From Balneolaceae bacterium (GTDB taxonomy: Bacteria; Bacteroidota; Rhodothermia; Balneolales; Balneolaceae), in contig JAXHMM010000003.1 in the NCBI GenBank assembly GCA_034521445.1, forward strand, positions 62,001-126,000: a stretch of 64,000 nucleotides of DNA, written 5' to 3'. Shown piece by piece: positions 31,911 to 36,988 of the stretch. The position numbers and the translations under genes were made by a program. The notes under the pieces were generated by a model. That model made no database searches and had not been told where the DNA came from. It worked only from the letters and a program-made list of their open reading frames with translations. Position 1 is the stretch's first letter; each line of letters starts with the position of its first letter.

Positions 31911-32498
31911 TTAAACCATCTCCAGGAAATTCTGAAGCAACCGCCTTCCCGCGCTGCCCGATTTCTCCGGGTGGAACTGTACGCCCAGGTAGTTGTCGCG
32001 GCCGGCCGCTGCGGCAAAGGGAGTGATGTAGTCGCATTCGGCCAGCGTATGGTCGTTCAGCGGGGCATAGTAGGCGTGCACGTAGTAAAACCAGCTGCCG
32101 CCGTCCACGCCCCTCAGCAGGGGGTGGGAGTGGGATTCCGAGAAGGTGTTCCAGCCCATATGCGGTACCTTTTGCCGGTCGGAGCGAAAGCGCCTGAGGC
32201 GACCCGGGAGGATGCCCAGGCCCTTGCTGTCGCCCTCCTCTGAGGATTCATAGAGAAGCTGCATGCCCAGGCAGATGCCCAATACCGGCTTGTCGGTTTC
32301 CTTCAGCCAGAGGTCCAGGCCGCGGCTTTGCAGCGACTCCATGGCCGCTTTAGCGTGGCCCACACCGGGAAAGATCACGCCGTCCGCCGCCTCCAGCTCA
32401 CCGGGGTCGGCCGTGATCAGGTGCTCCCTGCCCAGCCGCTCCAGGGCATTGGAAACCGAGGCGAGGTTGCCGGCGTCGTAGTTGATGATGGCGATCAT
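31911..32498 (-). CDS. hisH: Imidazole glycerol phosphate synthase, glutaminase subunit
   Basis: 195 aa, a class I glutamine amidotransferase. The triad is C76 in VLGICLGMQLLYE with H176 and E178 in VQFHPEKSG. It supplies ammonia to HisF. The start overlaps the hisB stop by 4 bp (ATGA type). It is the last gene before the his series is broken by the exporter operon; its partner hisF is 6.8 kb further on. Confidence 0.96.
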   Translation of the reverse strand: MIAIINYDAGNLASVSNALERLGREHLITADPGELEAADGVIFPGVGHAKAAMESLQSRGLDLWLKETDKPVLGICLGMQLLYESSEEGDSKGLGILPGRLRRFRSDRQKVPHMGWNTFSESHSHPLLRGVDGGSWFYYVHAYYAPLNDHTLAECDYITPFAAAAGRDNYLGVQFHPEKSGSAGRRLLQNFLEMV

Positions 32499-33379
32499 AG
32501 CAGGTCCTTGGTACTGGGCAGGATGTTCAGGTTGCGCTCACTCCGGCTGACGGCCGCCCGGAGGCAGCGCGCGAAGGCCTTGAAGCAGGCCTCGATCTTG
32601 TGGTGGTCGTTTTCGCCCTCCACCTCCAGGTGCAAGGTGGCATTCAGGTGCATGGCCAGGGAGTGGAAAAAGTGCCGGGTCATCTCGGTGGGGAAGTCGC
32701 CCACCATCTCACGGCGGAAGCTGCCGCTGAATTCCAGCCAGGAGCGCCCGGAGAGATCCAGCGCGCAGGTGGCCCGGCTCTCGTCCATGGGCAGCACGAA
32801 GGCGTAGCGTTGCACGCCCGTCCTGTCGCCGAGGGCCAGGTCGATGGCTTCGCCCAGGGTAATGGCTACATCTTCGATGGTGTGGTGTCCGTCCACCTGC
32901 AGGTCGCCCTCACAGAAGAGCTGCAGGTCTATCAGCCCGTGCCGTGCGATCTGCTCGAGCATGTGGTCCAGGAAACCGAGTCCGGTGTCTATCTGCGCCC
33001 CGCCGCCGCCGTCCAGGTTCAGGCGCACCCGCACGCGGGTTTCCGAGGTTTGACGTTCATGCTCGGCCCGGCGTTCAGGAAAGAGGATGCCCTCGCAGAG
33101 GTCGGTCCACCCGCCGGCCTCCAGGGCCACGCCGTCGGTGCGCAGCAGCTGCAGCCGGTCGCCTTCTGGAGCCACACGCAGGCCGGCGCGGTCGGCGTCG
33201 TGGTCCGGGGCGATGCCCTCGTTTTCGAGGAGGGCGCGCTGCGGACCGCTCAGTTCTTCCGTCTCGAAGAGCAGGCGGTGTCCCGCCTGCTGCAGGCGCT
33301 TGAGGGCGTAGAGAGCGCCGCCCCGGAGCATCTCCTCGTCGGGGCCTTTCAGGGCTTCGGTGGTGATCTGGATGTTCAT
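32495..33379 (-). CDS. hisB: Imidazoleglycerol-phosphate dehydratase with degenerate N-terminal HAD remnant
   Basis: 294 aa from the ATG at 33379, which overlaps the hisC stop by 4 bp. Residues from about 103 are a complete dehydratase domain: INTG-like QIDTGLGFLDHML, first metal motif HHTIED (165-170) and second ENDHHKIEA. Residues 1-100 are unusual. GGALYALKRLQQAGHRLLF and DLCEGILFPERRAEHERQT line up with the HAD-phosphatase half and linker of bifunctional HisB. However, the DxDGT nucleophile motif and later HAD motifs are missing, and the domain is about 60 residues shorter. Dehydratase activity is expected; histidinol-phosphatase activity is not. Confidence 0.92.
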   Translation of the reverse strand: MNIQITTEALKGPDEEMLRGGALYALKRLQQAGHRLLFETEELSGPQRALLENEGIAPDHDADRAGLRVAPEGDRLQLLRTDGVALEAGGWTDLCEGILFPERRAEHERQTSETRVRVRLNLDGGGGAQIDTGLGFLDHMLEQIARHGLIDLQLFCEGDLQVDGHHTIEDVAITLGEAIDLALGDRTGVQRYAFVLPMDESRATCALDLSGRSWLEFSGSFRREMVGDFPTEMTRHFFHSLAMHLNATLHLEVEGENDHHKIEACFKAFARCLRAAVSRSERNLNILPSTKDLL

Positions 33380-34433
33380 GGGGAGAGTTTCTTGAGGGCT
33401 TCGATAAGACGGTCGTTGTCGGCGGGACGTCCCACGGTGATGCGCAGGCACTCCTCGCAGAGGGGTTCGTCTCCGCGGTAGCGTACAATCACGCCTGCTT
33501 CGGCCAAATCCCGGTAGATGCGCCGGGCGTCGTCAACCCGCACCAGCAGGAAGTTGGCCTGGCTCTCAAACACGGTGCGCACCTGTTTCAGTTCCGAGAG
33601 CCGGCCGGCCAGTTTCCGGCGCTCCCCACGGATGGAGTCGGCGTTGGCGCGCACCGTATCCAGGTGGTCCAGGGCGTCGGCGGCGGCGGCCGCGGAGAGA
33701 CTGCTCACGTTGTAGGGCGGCTTGACCTTCATCAGGTAGTCGATCAAGGGGCGGGTCCGAAAGCCATGCCCACGCGGGCACCGGCCAGGCCGAAGGATTT
33801 CGACAAGGTTTGCAGCACCACCAGGTTGGGATAATCGCGTACCCGGGGCGCCAGGCTGGGGGAGCTGCTGAAATCGATGTAGGCCTCGTCCACCACCACG
33901 ATGCCAGGGAACCAGCCGAGGATCTCCTCCAGCCGGTCCGGTTGAACCAGGTTGCCAGTGGGGTTGTTGGGCGAACAGAGAAAGAGCAGGCGGGTTTCCG
34001 GTCGGCAGGCTTTGCGCAGGGCCTCCGGACGAGGTTGGAAATTTCGGTCGGTCACGGCCTCGTCCACCGCTGCATCGTGGATGCGCGCGCTCACCCGGTA
34101 CATGCCGTAGGTGGGCGGGGCGATGAGGATGCGTCCCTTTCCAGGCTCGCAGAAGATGCGCAGCAGCAGGTCGATGGCCTCGTCGCTGCCTACCCCCAGG
34201 AAGACGTTATCCGCCTCTACCCCGCGCCAGTCGGCGATGCGGCGGCGCAGATACGGATGGCGCGGCGGGGGATAGCGGTGCAGGCCCGCCAGGGAGGGGG
34301 CCGGCGGCCCCCAGGCGTTTTCGTTGGCGTCTAGCAGCAGCCCCTCTCCGAAGTCGTCGCGTGCGCTGCGGTAGGGCTTCAGCTCCCGGATGTTGGGGCG
34401 GACCAGGGCGTCAAGGTCAAAGGCCTTGTTCAT
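33376..34433 (-). pseudogene. hisC: Histidinol-phosphate aminotransferase, interrupted by a one-base frameshift
   Basis: Two frames cover one HisC. The first (34433 to 33744) holds the N-terminal two-thirds with SPNNPTGNL, the PLP aspartate in VVDEAYIDF and lysine K212 in QTLSKSFGLAGARVG. It ends GMAFGPAP then TGA. The second (33747 to 33376) continues IDYLMKVKPPYNVSSLS to the normal C-terminus. At the junction the minus strand reads GCCCCTTGATC; one extra base, or a -1 slip on the C run, joins both frames with no lost residue. The body and operon place are normal. It is either a sequencing or assembly error in the C run or a recent mutation; programmed slippage is less likely. Confidence 0.88.
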
Positions 34434-34472: not shown

Positions 34473-35789
34473 TCAGTCTTCGTTACCGTGGCCGGATTCA
34501 TCCCCGCGGGACTCCAGGCGGATGGTGACGGCGCGCCGGTGTCCCTCCAGTCCCTCGATCTGCGCAAGGCGCTCCACGGCGGGCGCCAGGTTGCGCAGCC
34601 CTTCACGGCTGAGGCTCTGCATGGTGATCTGTTTGAGAAAAGAGTCCACCGACACCCCGGAGTACATGCGCGCATAGCCATAGGTGGGCAGGGTGTGGTT
34701 GGTCCCGCTGGCGTAGTCGCCGGCGCTCTCGGGGGTCCATCTGCCGAGAAATACGGAACCGGCGTGCCGGATGCGGCCGGCCTGCTCCTCAGCATGCTTG
34801 CACTGGACCACCAAATGCTCCGGGGCGTAGCGGTTGGAGAAGTCGAAGGCCTCCTCCAGGCTCTCCGCCTCCACGCTGAAGCTGTGTTCCAGCGCCTGCC
34901 GTGCGATCTCCGCGCGCGGCAGGTCGGCCAGCTGCGCCTCCAGGGCGTCCAGGCAGGCCTGGCGGTCGAAACCGGGAAGGTAGACCAACACCACCTGGCT
35001 GTCGGGTCCATGTTCGGCCTGCGAAAGCAGGTCGGCTGCCACAAAGCGGGGATCGGCTCCCGCGTCGGCGATCACCAGCACTTCGGAGGGGCCGGCCGGC
35101 ATGTCGATGGCCACCTGCGCACGGCTATTCTGCAGCAGCATCTTGGCGGCGGTCACGTACTGGTTGCCGGGCCCCAGGATCTTGTCCGCCTTGGGCAGGC
35201 CTTCCATGCCCCAGGCCATGGCGGCCACGGCCTGCGCGCCCCCGGCCAGCAGCAGGTGGGATGCGCCCACCTTGCGTGCGATATAGCGGATTTCGGGACC
35301 CACGCCGCCCTCTGCGTTGGGAGGGGTAGCTACGACGATGTTCCGGCAGCCAGCCAGCGCGGCGGGGATGCCCAGCATGAGCAGGGTGGAGGGGAGGATA
35401 GCGGTGCCCCCCGGCACGTAGAGGCCCACGGTGTCCAGGGGACGCGACACGCGCCGGCAGCGCACGCCGGGCATGGTTTCCACTTCGGTCTGGCGGGGGA
35501 GCTGGGCCTTGTGGAAGCGGTAGATGTTGCGAAAGGCCGTGTCAATGGCCTCCCGGGTCGGTTCCGGCAGCCCGGCTTCCGGTTCCTCGGCAGGATGCAG
35601 GATCAGCGGATCGGGATCGGTGCCGTCGAAGCGGCGGGTGTAGCGGCGCACGGCCTCCTCCCCCTCGCGCCTTACCTCTTCCAGGATGGGCCGGACCTGC
35701 TCGAAGATCTCCTCCAGCTCGAGCACGGGTCGGCGGCACAGCTCCTGCAGCTCCTCTTCGGTTCGTTCGCGGATGCGGTAGTCTTTCAT
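34473..35789 (-). CDS. hisD: Histidinol dehydrogenase
   Basis: 438 aa, full length. Family motifs: VGLYVPGGTAILPSTLLM, RNIVVATPP, GAQAVAAMAWG, KILGPGNQYVTAAK, and MPAGPSEVLVIAD. The zinc/catalytic region has SQAEHGPDSQ, and the C-terminal part has YASGTNHTLPTYGYARMYSG. It catalyses the last two steps of histidine synthesis (histidinol to histidine). It starts 9 bp after hisG; hisC follows after 39 bp. Confidence 0.97.
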   Translation of the reverse strand: MKDYRIRERTEEELQELCRRPVLELEEIFEQVRPILEEVRREGEEAVRRYTRRFDGTDPDPLILHPAEEPEAGLPEPTREAIDTAFRNIYRFHKAQLPRQTEVETMPGVRCRRVSRPLDTVGLYVPGGTAILPSTLLMLGIPAALAGCRNIVVATPPNAEGGVGPEIRYIARKVGASHLLLAGGAQAVAAMAWGMEGLPKADKILGPGNQYVTAAKMLLQNSRAQVAIDMPAGPSEVLVIADAGADPRFVAADLLSQAEHGPDSQVVLVYLPGFDRQACLDALEAQLADLPRAEIARQALEHSFSVEAESLEEAFDFSNRYAPEHLVVQCKHAEEQAGRIRHAGSVFLGRWTPESAGDYASGTNHTLPTYGYARMYSGVSVDSFLKQITMQSLSREGLRNLAPAVERLAQIEGLEGHRRAVTIRLESRGDESGHGNED

Positions 35790-35798
35790 GGGGGCCTC

Positions 35799-36680
35799 CT
35801 AGAGAATCATGCTTTCGATGGGCAGCATGACGATGCCGGTGGCCCCGGCCTCCTTCAGCCGCTCCATCACCTCCCAGAACCGCTCGATGGGAATGACGGT
35901 GTGGATGGCCACCATATTGTTATCGGCCAGGGGCATGACCGTAGGACTCTTCAGGGAGGGAATGATCTCGCGGATTTCCGCCACGGACTCCTGCGGCGCG
36001 TTCATCATGATGTAGCGGCTGCGACCGGCCTGCTGAAAGCCCTCGATGCGCTGCAGAAATTTTTCAATGAGTTTTTTCTTGCCCGGCGAGAGTTCCTTGT
36101 TGGTACGGATAAGCTGGGTCTCCGACTCGAAGACGGTTTCGATCTCGGCCAGGCCGTTGGCCTTGAGGGTGTTGCCGGTGGATACCAGGTCACAGATGGC
36201 GTCGGCGACCTTGAGCCGGGGAGCGATTTCCACTGCCCCCGATATGGTAACGATCCTGGCCTCCACGCCGCGCTCCTGCAGGAAACGGCGCGTCAGGTTG
36301 GGATAGCTGGTGGCGATGGTGCGTCCCTCGAAATCCTCAACGGTCTGAATTTCCCCGTTTTTACGGGCGGCCAGGGAGAGCCGGCAGACCCCGTAATCGA
36401 GTCCACGTATGACCGTCACGTCGACGCCGGTTTCAGCGGTGACGTTGGCGCCCACAAAGCCGAGGTCGCACACCCCGTCCTGGACGTATTCGGGGATGTC
36501 GTCGTCGCGGATGAGCAGCAGTTCCACGTCAAAGTTGCGGCAGGTGAGCATGAGGCTGCGCTTGTAGTTGTCGAAGCGAAGGCCGATGCCTTCCAGCAGG
36601 GCTATGGTTTTGTCGGTCAGCCGCCCGTCCTTTTGCAGGGCGATGCGGAGTGAGGTTTTGGAATTGGCAGAACGATTCAT
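35799..36680 (-). CDS. hisG: ATP phosphoribosyltransferase, long form
   Basis: 293 aa. The length and C-terminal segment (IIPSLKSPTVMPLADNNMVAIHTVI) show the long form with a regulatory ACT-like domain, which is feedback-inhibited by histidine and needs no HisZ. Catalytic parts: LRIALQKDGRLTDKT, YVQDGVCDLGFVGANVTAE, and the PRPP-binding region near ICDLVSTGNTLKANGL. It is step 1 and the first enzyme gene of the operon. It follows a histidine-rich leader ORF (36752-36835) by 71 bp. Confidence 0.97.
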   Translation of the reverse strand: MNRSANSKTSLRIALQKDGRLTDKTIALLEGIGLRFDNYKRSLMLTCRNFDVELLLIRDDDIPEYVQDGVCDLGFVGANVTAETGVDVTVIRGLDYGVCRLSLAARKNGEIQTVEDFEGRTIATSYPNLTRRFLQERGVEARIVTISGAVEIAPRLKVADAICDLVSTGNTLKANGLAEIETVFESETQLIRTNKELSPGKKKLIEKFLQRIEGFQQAGRSRYIMMNAPQESVAEIREIIPSLKSPTVMPLADNNMVAIHTVIPIERFWEVMERLKEAGATGIVMLPIESMIL

Positions 36681-36751
36681 GGATATAGGTTGATACTGGG
36701 ATTACAGGTAAAAAGAGTGGTGTTCGTACGTCCGGGGAGCGCGGCAGGAAT

Positions 36752-36835
36752 TTACCGCAGATGGGTAAGCATAAGGTGACGGGCGTCACCGTGGTGTCGA
36801 TGAAGATGGGGAATATGGAAGGTGCGTTGCTGCAT
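36752..36835 (-). CDS. hisL: Histidine-rich leader peptide of the his operon (HisL-like)
   Basis: A 27-codon ORF from ATG to TAA. Seven codons are histidine (positions 7, 10, 12, 14, 15, 20 and 25; four CAT and three CAC). Its core reads HIPHLHRHHGDARH. It is in the same orientation as hisG and ends 71 bp before its start. This is what transcription attenuation needs: histidyl-tRNA shortage stalls a ribosome on the His codons. A 6-bp perfect stem with a 4-base loop (36775-36790) lies inside the ORF at codons 16-21. A T5 run lies at about 36712-36716, but no strong stem precedes it. The downstream mechanism is therefore unresolved (classical terminator, Rho or coupling). An AT-rich TATATT (36844-36849) lies just upstream. 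It is too short for normal gene calling. Confidence 0.8.
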   Translation of the reverse strand: MQQRTFHIPHLHRHHGDARHLMLTHLR

Positions 36836-36955
36836 CGGCACCCAATATAGCTATTTTAAGAGCAAGCTTCCAGAGCAGCTTCAGCCGGCTGTTGAAGACC
36901 CGGGCCTGTTCGGATCGGGACGCGCTGCGGGGGGCGTTCTCTCCGCCCAAAGAAG

Positions 36956-36988
36956 AAAGCCCCGACCCTATCACGGGTCGAGGCTTTT
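36956..36988. terminator. Strong hairpin, possible bidirectional terminator, upstream of the his leader
   Basis: AAAGCC and CGACCC pair with GGGTCG and GGCTTT (36956-36968 with 36975-36987), with one mismatch and a 6-base loop. On the minus strand it is followed by a pyrimidine-rich CTTTCTTCTTTG, on the plus strand by TTTTGG. No gene on either strand obviously ends here, so it may terminate an unannotated RNA. Confidence 0.5.

Follow-up and report, generated by a model that had tools for sequence, protein, structure and literature searches.

A conserved histidine-rich leader peptide before hisG in Balneolaceae and its possible Rho-dependent output

The leader ORF and the his operon

The DNA considered here is a 64 kb stretch of a Balneolaceae genome, referred to at its full length as the window, and the named neighbours of the source genome are Fodinibius, Gracilimonas, Balneola and Rhodohalobacter. 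On its minus strand lies a his operon in which a short, histidine-rich ORF is followed by hisG, hisD, hisC, hisB and hisH, in that order:

36752..36835, minus strand: hisL-like leader peptide ORF, encoding MQQRTFHIPHLHRHHGDARHLMLTHLR and a stop codon, with 7 His in 27 codons; kept in Balneolaceae
35799..36680, minus strand: hisG, ATP phosphoribosyltransferase, the first gene of the operon (TIGR00070, 194.8 bits; TIGR03455)
34473..35789, minus strand: hisD, histidinol dehydrogenase (TIGR00069)
33744..34433, minus strand: 5′ part of hisC, operon member, the rest lying in another frame downstream
32495..33451, minus strand: hisB (IGP dehydratase region), operon member
31911..32498, minus strand: hisH (TIGR01855), operon member

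The hisC gene as a whole occupies 33330–34433 (minus strand), and a frameshift near 33750 divides it in two; its first part encodes 229 amino acids with a terminal GPAP before the stop codon, and the remainder (PLIDYLMKVKPPYNV...LIEALKKLSP, then a stop codon) continues in another frame. This frameshift could reflect either a genuine lesion or a mistake in the assembly.

The leader is encoded on the same strand as hisG, its translation running from 36835 to 36752, and its stop codon lies 71 nt from the hisG ATG at 36680. The original prediction of a 27-codon ORF with seven His codons on the strand of hisG, built around the core HIPHLHRHHGDARH, was reproduced exactly on re-translation, and its assertion that a chance origin is very unlikely is borne out by two separate counts. 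A first-order Markov null based on the 400 nt 5′ of hisG yielded a comparable ORF, defined as 12–45 codons with at least 7 His, in 3 of 2000 resamplings, and a search of both strands across the 64 kb window turned up no ORF of this kind other than the leader. Rfam searches at both gathering and permissive thresholds gave no attenuator or T-box match in the leader region; relaxing these searches as far as E = 5 produced a single chance match, located in the hisG coding region, and none elsewhere in the region. Likewise, the His_leader covariance model (RF00514) had no match at the leader. We consider it close to certain that this ORF is a genuine leader peptide.

Leader conservation and the his terminator

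Wherever a Balneolaceae locus extends far enough upstream, a histidine-rich ORF is present 5′ of hisG, encoding peptides such as MQKNTLHIHSLHHGGFDRQ, MKNKRLHNAHHLHHGLHHGHHHVH and MAKNITHISLHHHCHHGSHGHIVR. Together, 62 of these leaders contain 513 His codons (approximately 8.3 per leader), and between genera they have little in common beyond these codons. The comparison of close relatives suggested alongside the original prediction therefore came out in its favour, with the ORF always present and its His codons kept while other codons drift. Leaders of this type are common across Bacteroidota, with examples including MNRTHRHHHHVHASPKGRW and MKRTVLHHHHHHYNGQ; judged from sequence, his leaders are a general feature of the phylum and the ORF in the window belongs to that set. 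In some other Balneolales families, however, hisG lacks a recognisable His ORF (several loci among L047–L076). By the same criteria, no His-rich ORF was seen 5′ of hisG at L059, L063, L064, L067, L068 and L076, and the leader seems to have been lost or changed in these lineages.

A T5 run occurs 3′ of the leader ORF, at 36714–36710 on the minus strand. As a terminator this run was rejected, since the terminator scan finds no stem before it, in agreement with the earlier reading that a classic terminator is not obvious here and that the T5 run has no strong preceding stem. No stem-loop and T run of the hisL type was found in the interval between the leader and hisG in the window, and scanning approximately 60 Balneolaceae his leaders revealed no intrinsic terminator, with the exception of one borderline case (L022, −10.6 kcal/mol). 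Outside Balneolales, in contrast, hisG is preceded by a strong hairpin and T run, with stabilities of about −9 to −25 kcal/mol, in at least 33 of approximately 40 his leaders.

The trp operons provide a useful comparison within the family. Leaders containing WWW or WW, with classic terminators, lie 5′ of trpE across Balneolaceae (L205–L234 and L265), and every trp leader recognised by the scan combines a T run with a terminator hairpin whose stability lies between −15.9 and −23.7 kcal/mol. The source genome's own trp leader, 5′ of trpE (L265, G000:C10), reads MSSHISAPRWWHGHDVRAVGKV, with AACCCGCTGCAGGAAACTGGGGCGGGTT and then a T run. As the trp leaders retain their terminators, there has been no family-wide general loss of attenuators. 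The suggestion that the his mechanism is unlike enterobacterial attenuation is thereby strengthened, the terminator having been lost family-wide at his and kept both at trp and in other Bacteroidota.

Two further observations concern a neighbouring hairpin and related leaders. A strong, terminator-like hairpin (AAAGCCTCGACCC-GTGATA-GGGTCGGGGCTTT) is present in the window at 36956–36987 on the minus strand, approximately 120 nt 5′ of the leader ORF. It sits between divergent genes, with no obvious gene for it to end, and may mark where a small RNA that lacks annotation ends. As a his attenuator it was rejected: lying upstream of both the leader ORF and its promoter, it cannot attenuate the operon from that promoter. 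In addition, conserved leader ORFs rich in branched-chain amino acids, with a LILSILISGIINLILIIS-like ending, precede ilvB in Fodinibius and Rhodohalobacter-like genomes (L235–L257); such ORFs occur before ilvB in many relatives, and the source genome has no full-length match to ilvB itself.

Promoter, leader hairpins and spacer

Around the leader ORF we identified the following elements, among which the near-leaderless spacing of the promoter, both hairpins and the C-rich spacer had escaped the original prediction:

36870..36872, minus strand: −33 element TGG, separated from the −7 box by 20 nt (in relatives TTGG, with a 19–20 nt spacer)
36842..36849, minus strand: −7 promoter box TATATTGG, matching the TAnnTTTG consensus at 5/6 positions, 6 nt before the ATG
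36775..36790, minus strand: hairpin I, GGTGAC-GCCC-GTCACC, within the ORF and directly 3′ of its HRHH cluster
36740..36759, minus strand: hairpin II, TGCGGTA-AATTCC-TGCCGCG, enclosing the leader stop codon
36681..36751, minus strand: rut-like spacer from the leader stop to hisG, 38% C and 12.7% G, with no intrinsic terminator

The predicted transcription start in the window lies at approximately 36837, giving a 5′ UTR of approximately 2 nt. Across Balneolaceae his leaders the TAnnTTTG box stands 4–5 nt before the start codon, which is often GTG, with TTGG approximately 20 nt farther upstream. The box of Flavobacterium psychrophilum spans −12 to −5 (PMC9723704), so that a spacing of 4 nt places +1 on the start codon. 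A box matching at least 5/6 positions at 4 or 5 nt was found for 44 of 72 leaders compared with 8 of 167 control genes, and perfect boxes at these distances for 21 of 72 leaders and none of the 167 controls; leader start codons were chosen partly by box score, which favours short spacing, and the controls (genes from sampled 20 kb stretches of Balneolaceae) were allowed any in-frame start within their first 25 codons to offset this bias. In terminator-type his leaders elsewhere in Bacteroidota the box is mostly 7–29 nt from the start. Balneolaceae trp leaders also have a close box (often 7 nt) and yet possess terminators, indicating that leaderlessness is not tied to the loss of the terminator.

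Promoter spacing thus predicts that the Balneolaceae his leader mRNA is leaderless. In the window the mRNA is predicted to be leaderless or to carry approximately 2 nt before the ATG, strict leaderlessness being less sure given the 5/6 box and the 6 nt spacing. The sole conserved promoter motif seen adjoins the upstream side of the ORF, and the transcript should therefore include it. Leaderless mRNAs are rare in the Bacteroidota that have been studied, at 5.5% in F. psychrophilum (PMC9723704), and 5′ UTRs under 10 nt account for 3.7% in B. thetaiotaomicron (PMC7366714).

Relatives have a hairpin at the position matching hairpin I, with arms that differ from group to group (GGCGGT/ACCGTC, GATGTCC/GGACATC, ATGATnGCC/GGCnATCAT and GCTATC/GATAGC), and this hairpin, at a mean z of −0.40, is only slightly more stable than expected from synonymous recoding. 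Hairpin II is more stable than in shuffled spacers (mean z −1.49, n = 58), with a weak value of −0.35 for the window's own leader. Its arms also show better pairing to the native spacer than to spacers exchanged between leaders (z −6.3, n = 46), a figure that is inflated by relatedness, the loci being kin to each other so that P values overstate their independence. RNAalifold applied to whole leaders found a consensus within subgroups only, because the hairpins shift position and change arms. When ribosome masks were applied to the leader of the window, hairpin I disappeared with the ribosome stalled at codons 14–15 (HH), and hairpin II disappeared with the ribosome placed on the stop codon. 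The masks remove hairpin I or hairpin II only, the group alignments contain no conserved alternative (antiterminator) helix, and no antitermination structure accounting for a switch was identified.

The composition of the spacer is distinctive. Among 59 Balneolaceae his leaders it averages 26% C and 7% G, compared with 19% C and 17% G upstream of the 167 control genes, 17% C and 20% G in the spacers of terminator-type his leaders, and 16% C and 20% G in trp leader spacers. A rut-like stretch, defined by a C/G ratio of at least 2 and spaced Cs, occurs in 88% of leaders and 11% of controls, and the C excess is found in every genus-level group. The folding model gives an unpaired probability of 0.71 for the spacer versus 0.46, and an unstructured C-over-G region, a putative Rho loading site, is present both in the window and in the spacers of the family. 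The hisG start is modelled as unpaired at 0.65 whether there is no ribosome, a stalled ribosome or a ribosome at the stop codon, with a difference of 0.005 between the stalled and finished states, and is more open than the starts of control genes (0.47). Sequestration of the hisG start is not supported by these models.

The source genome encodes Rho (591.8 bits). As a separate observation, two Rho proteins are found per genome, represented here by L202 (G000:C6:322974-324167) and L201 (G000:C5:66475-67962). The second paralogue, of approximately 400 amino acids, is present in 24 of 24 Balneolaceae genomes sampled, in another Balneolales family (f2) and in most of the Rhodothermia-class genomes sampled, and nearly all other Bacteroidota sampled have a single Rho.

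A proposed model for histidine control of the operon

It is likely that the leader peptide confers histidine-responsive control, and the established logic of leader peptides makes it likely that histidine acts via ribosome stalling. A detailed consideration of the leader and spacer enabled us to propose a fuller model, to which we give about an even chance, in which hisGDCBH is controlled by charged tRNA-His via a leaderless leader peptide, with Rho-dependent termination as the output. With tRNA-His charged, the ribosome would reach the leader stop codon and leave, whereupon Rho would load on the spacer and transcription would end before hisG. When histidine is short, the ribosome would instead stall within the His run and alter which hairpins form; in this stalled state Rho would be inactive and RNA polymerase would continue into hisG. 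Hairpin II, which would be opened only by a ribosome that has reached the ORF's end, is the candidate for the link from stalling to Rho exclusion. Spacer composition, the absence of a terminator and the openness of the spacer form the basis for the Rho output, and suggest that Rho probably stops transcription in the spacer once the leader has been fully translated, a step that we would put at roughly evens.

Other explanations would place the regulatory output elsewhere. In translational attenuation, a stalled ribosome would open a structure otherwise covering the hisG start. A short, leaderless ORF without a terminator is indeed the layout of the mycobacterial cys leaders (PMC1262725; Canestrari et al. 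2020, cited in PMC13236596), but an hisG start that is unpaired at 0.65 in all ribosome states (difference 0.005; controls 0.47), together with group alignments devoid of conserved pairing between the leader and this start, makes such a mechanism unlikely here. It is quite unlikely that ordinary intrinsic attenuation operates through a weak and unusual terminator composed of hairpin II, or longer variants of it, with scattered T runs. Although T-rich stretches follow hairpin II in some relatives (L022, −10.6 kcal/mol; L103, L107 and L110, −5.3 kcal/mol), most Balneolaceae leaders, including that of the window, have no stem of at least 5 pairs abutting a T run, the window sequence 3′ of hairpin II is CTCCCCGG, and the same scan detects strong terminators in the Balneolaceae trp leaders.

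Leader translation might also act on hisG by some other route, such as reinitiation, mRNA decay or polymerase pausing/ribosome coupling, in which case the C-rich spacer would be no more than an unstructured stretch where ribosomes enter hisG. Shine-Dalgarno sequences are little used in Bacteroidota, and a spacer that is open, as computed here, could therefore help initiation. Such a role sits poorly, however, with the lack of a C-over-G excess upstream of Balneolaceae control genes (19/17) or in trp spacers (16/20), and spacers of approximately 55–115 nt are long for reinitiation; we regard routes of this kind as improbable. Finally, histidine-rich peptides can bind metals, and the ORF could be a metal-binding small protein, or a product of chance, unrelated to histidine control. 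The constant position of the ORF before hisG, both in Balneolaceae and across the phylum, the divergence of the peptides with mainly their His codons kept, and the parallel occurrence of Trp-rich leaders before trpE render this extremely improbable.

The sensor part of the proposed Rho-linked system is known in kind, and the his leader as such is a member of the known Bacteroidota set. In common with enterobacterial hisL (RF00514), it comprises a short, His-rich ORF that immediately precedes hisG, shares its transcript and is interpreted as sensing charged tRNA-His. Unlike hisL, the Balneolaceae leader has no Rfam match, no intrinsic terminator or antiterminator that we could find, a start codon that coincides with the predicted 5′ end or lies close to it, and a C-rich spacer. 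The terminator-type leaders of Bacteroidia, Ignavibacteria and part of Rhodothermia also have a His-rich leader approximately 50–130 nt before hisG, and position suggests that the two types are presumably homologous; however, they carry a strong GC hairpin and T run, which the Balneolaceae leaders lack, and usually a longer 5′ UTR. The mycobacterial poly-Cys leaders share a leaderless ORF rich in one amino acid and the lack of a terminator, but belong to another phylum, amino acid and operon, and the hisG start is modelled as not occluded in our case. For these cys leaders Rho was once proposed as a possible output (Seliverstov et al. 2005, PMC1262725), and translation attenuation was later reported for the leaderless poly-Cys ORFs (Canestrari et al. 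2020, as cited in PMC13236596).

Rho-dependent leaders such as E. coli tna and the topAI uORF (PMC12121999) show how translation of a short ORF can decide Rho termination before structural genes, as predicted here, although what they respond to is free Trp or drugs that target the ribosome, whereas the sensor in Balneolaceae would be the His codons. Within Bacteroidota, the attenuators predicted in Flavobacterium psychrophilum (PMC9723704) similarly have leader peptides upstream of amino acid operons, and the accessible text of that study describes no leaderless or terminator-free his leaders. The his genes of this superphylum were surveyed in 2021 (PMC8305728), in a paper from which the word ‘leader’ is absent. 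In the literature that we searched, we found no terminator-free, leaderless his leader in Bacteroidota.

Classical attenuation, as taught, joins a leader peptide to a terminator hairpin. In Balneolaceae this hairpin has been dropped at his and kept at trp, with the sensor kept, and sensor and output are therefore separable. On a tentative evolutionary reading, which in our estimation falls a little short of an even chance, the his attenuator of the family would have exchanged its intrinsic terminator for a Rho output while keeping the His-codon sensor, in a leaderless ORF, with the second Rho possibly linked to this change. Attenuator searches based on terminators miss leaders of this kind. 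Looking forward, the swap is testable in the culturable genera Fodinibius, Gracilimonas, Balneola and Rhodohalobacter and, if true, would represent a clear case of evolution exchanging one output module for another beneath an amino acid sensor that stayed conserved.
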